NCBI GenBank assembly: GCA_017468465.1
Contig: JAFUIN010000010.1
Location: 1-37,125, forward strand
DNA from: Clostridia bacterium
GTDB lineage: Bacteria; Bacillota; Clostridia; UMGS1840
Direction of reading: 5' to 3'
Length of the DNA stretch: 37,125 nucleotides
This document shows, piece after piece, positions 144-37,125 of this stretch. A program made the translations under genes and the position numbers. The notes below the pieces were generated by a model. It ran no database searches. It was not told where the DNA came from and worked only from the letters and a program-made list of their open reading frames with translations. Position 1 is the stretch's first letter, and each line of letters opens with the position of its first letter.

Positions 144-215
144 CCTTCCCCTCAAGGGGAAGGCATGAGAAGGGTATGCTTGTTGCGGTCTCGGTGATTT
201 TATCAAGCCGAGGGA
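144..215. repeat. 20-bp palindrome plus truncated structured-repeat fragment flanking the left IS
   Basis: Positions 144-163 are the palindrome CCTTCCCCTCAAGGGGAAGG. The following segment to about 213, read on the minus strand, contains the GGCTTGATAAAA and CCGAGACCGC motifs that open the structured repeats at 36.6 kb. The same palindrome sits at 37053-37072 beside the right IS copy. Confidence 0.65.
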
Positions 216-12363: not shown

Positions 12364-12639
12364 ATGTATTATGTTTACATTCTTACGAATAAATCAAATA
12401 AAGTCTTGTATACAGGAGTAACAAACGATTTACGTCGACGGTTATATGAACATAAAAATAAGTTAATACCGGGATTTACCAGTACCTATAATGTTGATAA
12501 GCTTGTGTATTATGCTTACACCTCAAACATTAATGAAGCTATTGCATTTGAAAAGAAAATTAAAGGTTGGCGTCGTAGTAAAAAGGATGCTTTAATCGAA
12601 GAAATGAATCCCGAGTGGAAAGAATTAAAGATTGATTGA
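12364..12639 (+). CDS. GIY-YIG domain protein (YhbQ/UPF0213-like)
   Basis: The 91-residue product is a stand-alone GIY-YIG module: V-Y-I-L (4-7), L-Y-T-G-V-T (15-20), an Arg-rich helix (L-R-R-R-L-Y-E-H) carrying the catalytic Arg, and F-E-K-K-I-K-G-W with the metal-binding Glu. Such small proteins are predicted nucleases; the YhbQ group has reported DNA nuclease activity. The gene is flanked on both sides by dispersed repeats and its stop codon lies inside the downstream one. Its codons look more AT-rich than its neighbours (many ATA, TTA and AAA). These points suggest it entered the locus together with the repeats. No strong Shine-Dalgarno site was seen. Confidence 0.88.
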   Translation: MYYVYILTNKSNKVLYTGVTNDLRRRLYEHKNKLIPGFTSTYNVDKLVYYAYTSNINEAIAFEKKIKGWRRSKKDALIEEMNPEWKELKID

Positions 12640-15904: not shown

Positions 15905-16444
15905 TGAAAATTCCATTTTTCTGTCATTCTGATGAGTCTGTCCTCAGTCTGTCATTCTGAACGAAATGGCTTGCCATGCAGGGAAATGAATAATGAATGA
16001 TGAAGAGTGAATAATTTCGGTGCCAGTCGTTTGCCTGCATTGAAAATATGCGGGTCGTCGAGGACGCCGACCCCTACAATGCTGCATGCAATGCTACGCC
16101 GAGAGGTAAGGTTGGCGGATAGCAAAAGGCATTATAATCTAAAATTTGTGGGACACAAATTTTCACCTTATAAAAATAAAAGGCATAGGAATAATCCTAT
16201 GCCTTTTGCGTTCTCGTTCATTTTATCCAGCCGGACGGCGCAGAGAAAAGGATGCAGAACGGACAAACTGAACCCGCAGGGGTTACCCGAAGGCGTACAC
16301 AGGTACGCCGAGAGGTGAAGTTTGTTCGTAACAAAAAAGCAATTTCAATCCAAAATTGTTGCAAACAATTTTCACATTATAAAAATAAATATATTCTCAT
16401 TCCCATTGCTTTTTTGTGGTCTGGATTCTTTTATCAAAGCCGTA
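15905..16444. repeat. Tandem structured-repeat array (two units, minus orientation) with dispersed modules
   Basis: No gene is supported in this gap. At 15.92-15.98 kb there are GTCATTCTGA modules. From 15.98 to 16.09 kb there are a TGAATAATGAATGATGAAG stretch and the GGGTCGTCGAGGACGCCGAC hairpin. Two structured units follow on the minus strand, about 208 bases apart. Unit L2 has outer arms 16331-16343/16405-16417 (13 bp) and inner hairpin 16352-16372. Unit L1 has outer arms 16122-16132/16199-16209 (11 bp) and inner hairpin 16141-16163. L2 also has a second helix at 16260-16269/16319-16328. Both share the GGATAAAA/TGATAAAA entry motif and a TTTTTATAA-GTG segment with copies at 31.6 and 36.6 kb. 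Confidence 0.8.
16178..16207. terminator. Terminator-like hairpin inside structured unit L1
   Basis: AAAAGGCATAGGA (16178-16190) pairs perfectly with TCCTATGCCTTTT (16195-16207) around a 4-base loop. Its right arm is also the right arm of the outer L1 helix (16122-16132/16199-16209), so the two foldings exclude each other. Confidence 0.55.
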
Positions 16445-31387: not shown

Positions 31388-31615
31388 ATGAAGCTTTCCG
31401 AAGCTGTAAAAACGGTTCAACCCAAATACATTTCCATTTTGAAATGGTTTCTGTTTATTGCCACCCTCATTGCAATCATAGGAATTTTTGTCGTTCTTGC
31501 GGGAGAATACCGCACGGAAGCACGCTATCTTACCATTTTGGCTGCCACTGTTGCCTGTCAGGGAGTGTGGGGGATGGTGCTCTGTGACTGCATTCACCGA
31601 AGAAATGCTGGATAA
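31388..31615 (+). CDS. Small two-helix membrane protein of unknown function
   Basis: I chose the ATG at 31388 because AAAGGGG stands 7 bases upstream; the longer frame from 31250 would translate through the parS site. The 75-residue product has a short polar N-terminus, one membrane helix (~20-40), a charged loop (G-E-Y-R-T-E-A-R) and a second helix (~46-68), ending C-D-C-I-H-R-R-N-A-G. I do not recognise the family. It is the only plus-strand gene between 16 and 37 kb and is divergent from parA, with parS just upstream. Its stop codon TAA lies inside the GGATAAAA motif that opens the structured-repeat array downstream. Confidence 0.65.
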   Translation: MKLSEAVKTVQPKYISILKWFLFIATLIAIIGIFVVLAGEYRTEARYLTILAATVACQGVWGMVLCDCIHRRNAG

Positions 31616-32272
31616 AAGAACCCAGAGCGCGACAAGCATAGGGAATAAGATTTAATTTTTTTACAAGGTGAAATTTCGTTTGGTAACGAAATTTGAATTG
31701 AAAATGCTTGTCGCTATTAACAAACTTCCCCTCTCGCAGTACCTATGTACGGCTTCGGGGTCAGTTTGTTAATTCTGAATCCTTTTCTCTGCGCATTTTT
31801 ATGGTTTTATAAAATGTGCATAATCAGCCAACCTCATCTCTCGGCGTACCTGTGTACGCCTTCTGGATTATGCCGTGCGCAGCACCCCTGCGGGTTCGGT
31901 TGACGAATTCTCGTCAATTTTCTCTGCGCCTTACTTGCGGCTTGATAAAAGGCGCCTTGGTTAGAGTAAACCTCACCCACCGCTCACTGTAGCATTGCAT
32001 GTAGCATTGTAGGGGGCGGCGTCCACGACGCCCCGCATATTTTTAATGCAGGCAAACGACTGGCACCGAAATTATTCACTATTCATCATTCATTATTCAT
32101 TTGTCCATATGCCGTGCGCAGCACTTCTAAATCCTTTTTTCTGCGCATTTTTGTGGATTGATAAAATGTGCATAATCAGCCAACCTCATCGCTCGGCGTC
32201 CTCGACGACCCGCATATTTCTGATGCAGGTAAACGCCTGCCACCGAAATTATTCATTATTCATTCTTGTGTG
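31608..32272. repeat. Structured-repeat array (plus orientation) with dispersed modules
   Basis: No gene is supported here. Unit M1 has outer arms GCGACAAGCAT/ATGCTTGTCGC (31629-31639/31704-31714), inner hairpin AAATTTCGTT/AACGAAATTT (31671-31680/31685-31694) and second helix ATTAACAAACT/AGTTTGTTAAT (31716-31726/31763-31773), all perfect. A further helix TGCGCATTTT/AAAATGTGCA lies at 31790-31799/31811-31820. Three more GATAAAA or TATAAAA entry motifs follow near 31.81, 31.94 and 32.16 kb, one with GCATAATC pairing GATTATGC. Between them are GGCGTAC/GTACGCC, the GGCGTCCACGACGCC hairpin, and CATTCATTATTCAT-type modules. Confidence 0.8.
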
Positions 32273-36574: not shown

Positions 36575-37048
36575 CTTGTAGGCTTGATAAAATTACCGAG
36601 ACCGCAAAAGGCATAGGGACTTGTTCTATATTATTTTATAATGTGAAAATTTGCAGTCTGCAAATTTTGGATTATAATGCCTTTTGCTATCCGCCAACCT
36701 CACCTCTCGGCGTAGCAACCTGCGCCTTCGGGTAACCCCTATGGGTTCGGTTGACGGATTCTTGCCAATTTTCTCTGCGCCTTGTTTTTGGTTTTGATAA
36801 AAGGCACAGAATCAATGAATCTCACCACTCGCTGTAGCATTGCATGCAGCATTGTAGGGGTCGGCGTCCACGACGACCCGCATATTTTTAATGCAGGCAA
36901 ACGACTGGCATCGAAATTATTCACTATTCATTTGTCCATATGCCGTACGCAGCCTATGCCGTGCGCAGCCTATGCCGTGCGCAGCACTCTCTGCGCCTCG
37001 GCTACGATTTGGTATAATCACTCAGACCACAAAAAAGAACACCTTTCA
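36575..37048. repeat. Structured-repeat unit (plus orientation) with downstream modules
   Basis: There is no gene in this stretch. Unit R1 has outer arms GCAAAAGGCAT/ATGCCTTTTGC (36604-36614/36677-36687), inner hairpin AAAATTTGCA/TGCAAATTTT (36646-36655/36659-36668), and second helix 36689-36699/36749-36759 (10 of 11). After it come CTCTGCGCC, a second TTGATAAAA entry with GATTCT/AGAATC pairing, the TAGCATTGCATGCAGCATTG module, the GTCGGCGTCCACGACGAC hairpin and ATTATTCACTATTCAT. A truncated entry (CAGACCACAAAAAAG) lies at 37023-37037, just before the right IS. Confidence 0.8.
36939..36986. repeat. Three tandem 16-bp units
   Basis: TATGCCGTGCGCAGCC occurs three times in a row with one or two differences per unit. 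Single copies of the core (ATGCCGTGCGCAGCAC) also occur at about 31.87 and 32.11 kb. Confidence 0.85.
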
Positions 37049-37052
37049 CAAG

Positions 37053-37072
37053 CCTTCCCCTTGAGGGGAAGG
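37053..37072. repeat. 20-bp palindrome beside the right IS copy
   Basis: CCTTCCCCTTGAGGGGAAGG is the same palindrome as at 144-163, here immediately upstream of the IS end. Confidence 0.75.
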
Positions 37073-37074
37073 TA

Positions 37075-37125
37075 GGTATGTTATCATTTGAAGTGCAACA
37101 CTAAATAAAAATAGACAACATAGCA
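37075..37125 (+). mobile_element. 5' end of an IS30-like insertion sequence (right copy, partial)
   Basis: The last 51 bases are the reverse complement of 91-141, so a second copy of the same element enters here in plus orientation and is cut by the window end before its transposase start. Both window ends stopping in one repeated element fits an assembly break at IS copies. Confidence 0.7.

Follow-up and report, generated by a model that had tools for sequence, protein, structure and literature searches.

The BOX elements of Streptococcus pneumoniae are modular (boxA-boxB-boxC), with ends that pair together and an inner module that can be replaced, and they occur clustered and inserted into one another (PMC3049150). 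BOX and RUP elements show target duplications and occur almost exclusively in pneumococcus and its close relatives, and the SPRITE repeats of S. pneumoniae are terminator-like and lie near the 3' ends of genes (PMC3049150). REP and REPIN sequences, with their RAYTs, are extragenic hairpin repeats that occur in arrays; their mobilization in trans as folded single strands has been proposed, and their stems fall into subfamilies with alternative complementary bases (PMC3116915, PMC3733652). The REPs themselves are hairpins of 20-40 bp tagged with GTAG (PMC3116915, PMC3733652). ERIC/IRU, RUP, Correia/NEMIS and CIR are MITE-like intergenic repeats whose transcripts would form long stem-loops (PMC2229807).

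The element described here is best read as comparable in kind to BOX, ERIC or REPIN repeats. It differs from them in its three-way junction with a conserved core, in arms that change freely yet remain paired, and in its spread through the class Clostridia. The likeness to BOX and SPRITE is one of organization (small interspersed modular units, paired ends, clusters). In contrast to BOX, the fold of the element spans many Clostridia genera, its arms covary freely, and it has an internal-loop core and a three-way junction. Compared with REPs and REPINs, the element is ~200-300 nt long and RAYT presence does not strictly track it; the element ends (RGGGNNTGTAAA or GGCTTGATAAAA) have no GTAG (or CGTC) tag of the kind found at the hairpin foot. 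The ERIC/IRU, RUP, Correia/NEMIS and CIR repeats, by comparison, are mostly simple long stem-loops of narrow host groups. Integron attC sites are recombination substrates that are read by their single-strand fold and that have variable arms, and the element resembles them in both the single-strand fold and the variable arms. We did not notice a cassette array, an integrase or a GTT core in the course of the analysis.

Searches for a described counterpart were negative. Rfam 15 families had no matches in the window (the whole 37,125-nt stretch that was analysed), and permissive scans of element-bearing stretches gave weak, chance-level matches only. A phage or plasmid origin was considered and rejected: copy 2 (below) had no plasmid or phage matches, and the core had no exact match in IMG/VR. 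We found no paper describing the element in the open-licence literature that we searched.

Architecture of the element and its copies in the window

The preliminary description of the window had reported four related hairpins, and all four are where it placed them, those of copies 1 and 2 on the minus strand. Their outer arms pair completely as written there, and each hairpin is stabler than its own dinucleotide shuffles (z -6.1, -4.4, -4.2 and -4.0). The segments said to be common to them (GATAAAA, AGAnCGC and TATAAnGTGAAA) are real. However, the hairpins had been taken for the whole element. Copies in distant genomes revealed that each is a single arm, P1, within a longer unit (e.g., 16237-16441, minus strand), and the other parts of that unit, P2 and P0, as well as its class-wide spread, had been missed. 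Nor are there only four copies: the window's genome (G000; 1.51 Mb in 32 contigs, the window being the entire contig 14) has 24 matches at E<=0.01, by E-values that are rough, and the window further has two left ends that are truncated, at positions 164-209 and 37006-37037. Repeats of other kinds surround the four hairpins.

The unit is an imperfect closing stem, P0, that holds two arms, P1 and P2, giving a three-armed fold. In gene-sense orientation, the 5' strand of P0 is GGGGATGTAAAAAAGTCCAGA (GGCTTGATAAAAGAACCCAGA in the window's genus) and its 3' strand is TTCTGAACATTTTTTCCTATCCCC. The complementary ends of P0 are terminal inverted repeats, and their sequence differs from copy to copy, unlike fixed transposase binding sites. 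P1 has arms such as GCAAAAGGCAT around a loop of ~60-130 nt that often contains a terminator-like hairpin, and both arms and loop are variable, the loop being replaceable. P2, again in gene sense, reads TATGAACAAACTTCACC-CTCGACGTACCTATGTACGCCTTCGGGT-variable P3-CAGTTTGTCCAT and has the conserved core CTCG..CTTCGGG. In several genomes, the 3' strand of P0 is followed by a tail hairpin (e.g., GGGGCTGTAA..TTACAGCCCC). A second form of the element lacks P1 and consists of P0 and P2 only. The three-way junction also appears in folds made without any alignment: it is the MFE fold of copy 2 on both strands (z -4.6 and -6.8), and single-sequence folding of a 291-nt copy from another family gives the same junction (z -8.4). 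A coding reading of ATGAACAAACTTCACC was rejected, as its ATG is lost where P2 covaries (ATG/ACG). The copies and associated repeats in the window are as follows (bit scores are for models R1 and R2).

164-209, minus strand: truncated left end (GGCTTGATAAAATCACCGAGACCGCAACAAGCAT), then the CCTTCCCC repeat, then the start of a further open frame
16095-16232, minus strand: copy 1, with the P0 5' strand and P1 (GCAAAAGGCAT) containing an internal terminator-like hairpin; P2 is broken after CTCTCGGCGTA by a GTAG repeat; R1 140.1 bits
16122-16209, minus strand: P1 hairpin of copy 1
16177-16208: terminator-like hairpin in copy 1, terminator-like on both strands
16237-16441, minus strand: copy 2, a complete element; P0 GGCTTTGATAAAAG..CAGA / TTCTG..CTTTTCTCTGCGCC, P1 of arm class B, P2 core CTCGGCGTACCTGTGTACGCCTTCGGG, and P3; R2 104.7 bits; junction in the MFE fold; orthologous site empty in the relative G004
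16331-16417, minus strand: P1 hairpin of copy 2, arms ACAAAAAAGCAAT
31607-31795, plus strand: copy 3, a complete element; P1 arms GCGACAAGCAT, P2 TTAACAAACT/AGTTTGTTAA; R1 121.6 bits, R2 84.7 bits
31629-31714, plus strand: P1 hairpin of copy 3
31818-31930, plus strand: P1-less unit (P0 and P2) in the same array as copy 3; R2 60.1 bits
36582-36781, plus strand: copy 4, a complete element adjoining the start of a minus-strand ZIP-family gene (Pfam Zip); P1 arms GCAAAAGGCAT; R1 141.9 bits, R2 90.8 bits
36604-36687, plus strand: P1 hairpin of copy 4
37006-37037, plus strand: second truncated left end, with a like continuation that runs off the contig
16046-16077, 31999-32040 and 36850-36885: REP-like hairpins with a GTAG tag (GTAGGGGTCGGCGTCCTCGACGACCCGC), part of the same intergenic mosaics and sometimes situated within P2 of an element copy

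The two ends of the contig carry identical sequence (1-180 on the minus strand and 37040-37125 on the plus strand), made up of the CCTTCCCC repeat, behind which an open frame begins (MSSYIHFTHDER...); the frame seems to resemble an IS30-type transposase. Repeat and open frame together interrupt the P1 loop of an element that is truncated. Elsewhere in the window, positions 12364-12639 encode a 91-aa GIY-YIG domain protein with dispersed GAATCTC/GTCATTC-type repeats on both flanks, and it looks as if the protein is carried by, or associated with, these repeats.

Covariation of the arms and the probable strand of the fold

Our alignments support selection on the fold, on a single strand, and the sequence of the arms is not conserved. 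P1 arms come in more than 20 different sequences, nearly all of which pair perfectly. The arms were placed only by the motif that precedes the left arm and by the start of P2 that follows the right arm, so complementarity played no part in finding them. In the genus alignment, P1 and its inner hairpin are 98.3% paired, with 119 two-sided changes against 25.5+-5.2 in shuffles (0/500); this alignment was fitted to the covariance model and thus leans towards structure. For P2/P2.1/P3 at the level of the class, 95 distinct rows are 91.1% paired and contain 276 two-sided changes (shuffles 73.2+-6.4; 0/500), and pairing in the P2 domain falls from 91% to 30-41% when the structure is slid along the alignment. 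Reducing the P2 alignment to one row per genus (20 genera) leaves 54 two-sided changes against 14.2+-3.0 (0/2000 shuffles); the genomes are drafts, and relatedness is controlled only in part. The ends of P0 score 3.77 with their own partners and 3.00+-0.10 with shuffled partners, in a test diluted by copies in which the right end had been misregistered.

The preliminary description had proposed selection on a folded single strand, and had held that a lack of covariation in a deep alignment would refute it. The deep alignments instead have covariation beyond every shuffle. Its further statement that each helix is fully paired holds for the four copies that it noted and fails for another copy in the same genome (L014/L145; G000:C22:17372-17501). 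In this copy, a left arm of class A faces a right arm of class B, which breaks P1; it is a hybrid produced by recombination between copies. P1 pairing is therefore not universal.

The mismatches in the fold show a strand bias. In gene-sense orientation there are 120 A.C mismatches and 25 G.T; the ratio is 94:1 at three pairs and even at the remainder. The A.C states, which recur across genera, are G.T or G.U on the opposite strand. The antisense fold is predicted to be the stabler one for 60 of the 62 P2 domains, for 56 of the 62 whole units and, with DNA energy parameters, for 64 of 68. That conservation of the fold is biased towards the antisense strand of the upstream gene is a strong claim but not a proven one, because purine-rich loops of that strand supply part of the energy bias. 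Neither the element nor its surroundings showed a promoter-like excess.

Distribution, placement and probable mobility

Covariance model R1 finds the element in each of the 5 genomes of the genus (these 5 also make up the whole family in our set), and covariance model R2 has matches in 46 of 291 genomes sampled from the class (28 of 180 genera). A pattern scan of named genomes gave one real match, RGIG7452 (water buffalo colon, same genus); the others were mostly chance. There are often tens of near-identical copies per genome. In several genomes (G060, G199, G257 and G054) such copies have flanks that are unrelated to one another, and many contigs end at them, often within a copy. Tandem copies also occur (L226, L231 and L306). 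The element is multi-copy, dispersed and non-coding, as classical MITEs are.

One site bears on mobility. Between the DUF4432 and ClpC genes, the close relative G004 has ~70 bp and lacks the array, the window has ~550 bp with the array immediately behind CTAATAC, and G001 carries a P1-less unit there, behind CTAAGAC; this is a comparison of a single site between species, in which loss from G004 looks the same as gain. No target-site duplication was evident at this orthologous empty site or in the flanks inspected by eye. Duplication of the target by the tail hairpin was considered and rejected, since left end and tail are consistently different in G060.

The left end of the element mostly lies 0-10 nt past a stop codon on the same strand. 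A same-strand stop falls within -14 to 60 nt of the left end in 56 of 67 copies (84%) and for 234 of 2000 random positions (11.7%); ~16% of copies have no adjacent sense gene end. The pattern of an intrinsic terminator (a GC-rich stem, then a T run, read in the direction of transcription) fits hairpins inside P1 in some copies, and by eye it fits the tail hairpin. These terminator-like hairpins are parts of the element and not the whole of it.

Several copies have rearranged modules. Within one genome, P2 has been swapped while the remaining element is nearly unchanged (L383 against the other G060 copies; L376 and L394), and an alternative core, CTTGATGTGC..GCACATCGGCGGGT, occurs among these copies. 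In L352 and L372 (G060), P2 is replaced after GCTATG by a shared longer insert that runs off the contig end. This insert was considered and set aside; it itself consists of short dispersed repeats. In L239 and L240, which are apparently orthologous, the loop of the internal hairpin is inverted (GCAGGTTCTGC in one, GCAGAACCTGC in the other).

Proposed explanations for the element and its mover

Among the options that the preliminary description had left side by side (a non-coding RNA, a non-autonomous mobile element or a protein-binding element), the mobile element is the best supported, by dispersed near-identical copies and by the empty site in a relative. We think it probable that the copies belong to a new family of miniature, non-autonomous mobile elements found in the class Clostridia, with selection acting on their single-stranded fold. 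The observations behind this view are covariation, dispersal, an empty site, position and strand bias. Units would insert singly or in tandem, with the left end right behind a stop codon and mostly in gene sense. Insertion behind genes would be tolerable or harmless because of the terminator-like hairpins within the unit. Since the fold is conserved rather than the sequence of the arms, we suspect that the copying or binding machinery reads a structured single strand. A trans-acting enzyme could mobilize the element via a folded single-stranded DNA intermediate, and our guess is that the enzyme would be of the HUH/Y1 type.

The alternative that we take most seriously, though we do not favor it, is a functional RNA of 3'-UTRs that is made together with the upstream gene, or in antisense to it, and whose fold serves to shield mRNA ends, to stop transcription or to bind a protein, with multiplication being secondary. 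The narrow siting behind stop codons could reflect such a 3'-end function: 84% of copies begin right behind a stop codon in gene sense, many contain terminator-like hairpins, two species of one genus have kept the same element behind one and the same gene (L239 and L240), and covariation is typical of RNA families. However, the fold is biased towards the strand that read-through from the gene does not produce, the promoter-like excess expected for an antisense RNA was not found, and ~16% of copies are not beside a sense gene end. Near-identical copies also lie behind unrelated genes, tandem arrays occur, and loops carry other repeats. This dispersal, together with the nesting of mosaics and the bias in strand, makes a mobile element likelier in our view than a cis-acting RNA. 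A narrower form of the mobile-element explanation, with which it shares part of its support, is that of a REPIN-like element for which the mover would be a tyrosine transposase of the RAYT type, with folded ssDNA as its substrate. RAYT-like tyrosine transposases of 150-175 aa (L330:716-1234, L331:841-1329, L333:738-1202 and L337:944-1444), mostly with 1-5 matches per genome, fall just under the cut-off of NCBIfam REP_Tyr_transpos and match Pfam Y1_Tnp. Their subfamily is enriched 5-fold in carriers (25 of 46 element-bearing genomes, 54%, against 27 of 245 others, 11%), an association that is confounded by phylogeny. A strand-specific fold, a lack of clear target duplication, GTAG repeats in the same mosaics and two RAYT genes that adjoin an element (L330 and L331, the only such cases among the loci inspected) would all fit. 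Yet the element end has no GTAG tag, in G024 and G216 RAYTs of this type have GTAG repeats, and not the element, as neighbors, and by our search the subfamily is absent from the window's genome and several high-copy genomes, with G017, G054 and G108 among the carriers that lack it. We regard this form as rather unlikely, and a RAYT as the sole mover is unproven.

Two further explanations would do without selection on the fold or without a single family. Palindromes might be kept perfect by template switching during replication (quasi-palindrome correction), and within genomes the stems of similar copies do differ on both sides, as one-step copying of an arm gives (P2 of L383 against the other G060 copies; the tail hairpins of G257). 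But this process would also erase the A.C mismatches that are conserved at pairs 9/127 and 31/70, along with the internal loops (the core CTCG..CTTCGGG), and predicts no strand bias, whereas the junction and the core are constant across the class; we consider it very unlikely. More improbable still is a mosaic of unrelated terminators and repeats that merely resemble one family. Modules do recombine and nest (the L014 hybrid, CCTTCCCC repeats in loops, P2 replaced in L352, L372 and L383), but a single covariance model finds the same P2 core and P0 3' strand in 28 genera, and the differing P1 arms occupy the same place in each genus. These matches, the placement of the arms and the covariation that persists with one row per genus have already largely refuted it.

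For the mobile element that we prefer, no transposase tied to the element was found among the genes considered. An autonomous, gene-carrying copy was sought among left-only ends in G060, G199, G257, G108 and G290 and rejected; these ends are deletions, swapped modules, other repeats or contig ends, and a transposase frame was not seen. More tentatively, we speculate that the element could be a bacterial counterpart of a SINE or an attC cassette that is addressed by structure, spread class-wide, its sole conserved specificity being a folded single strand, with a predicted enzyme that would read the three-way junction and the CTCG..CTTCGGG core, not the terminal sequence, and would target the 3' ends of genes.

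The copies would then form a family of small jumping elements that looks new, and its structure can be put to the test. If so, dozens of genera among the uncultured Clostridia of gut and rumen have, where ordinary genes end, a structured element that has escaped annotation, in up to tens of copies per genome, and the reading of 3' ends, terminators and assembly breaks in these genomes would change. The family would also provide a natural test of how a mobile element keeps its fold while losing its sequence, and it defines a hunt for the enzyme that recognizes it.
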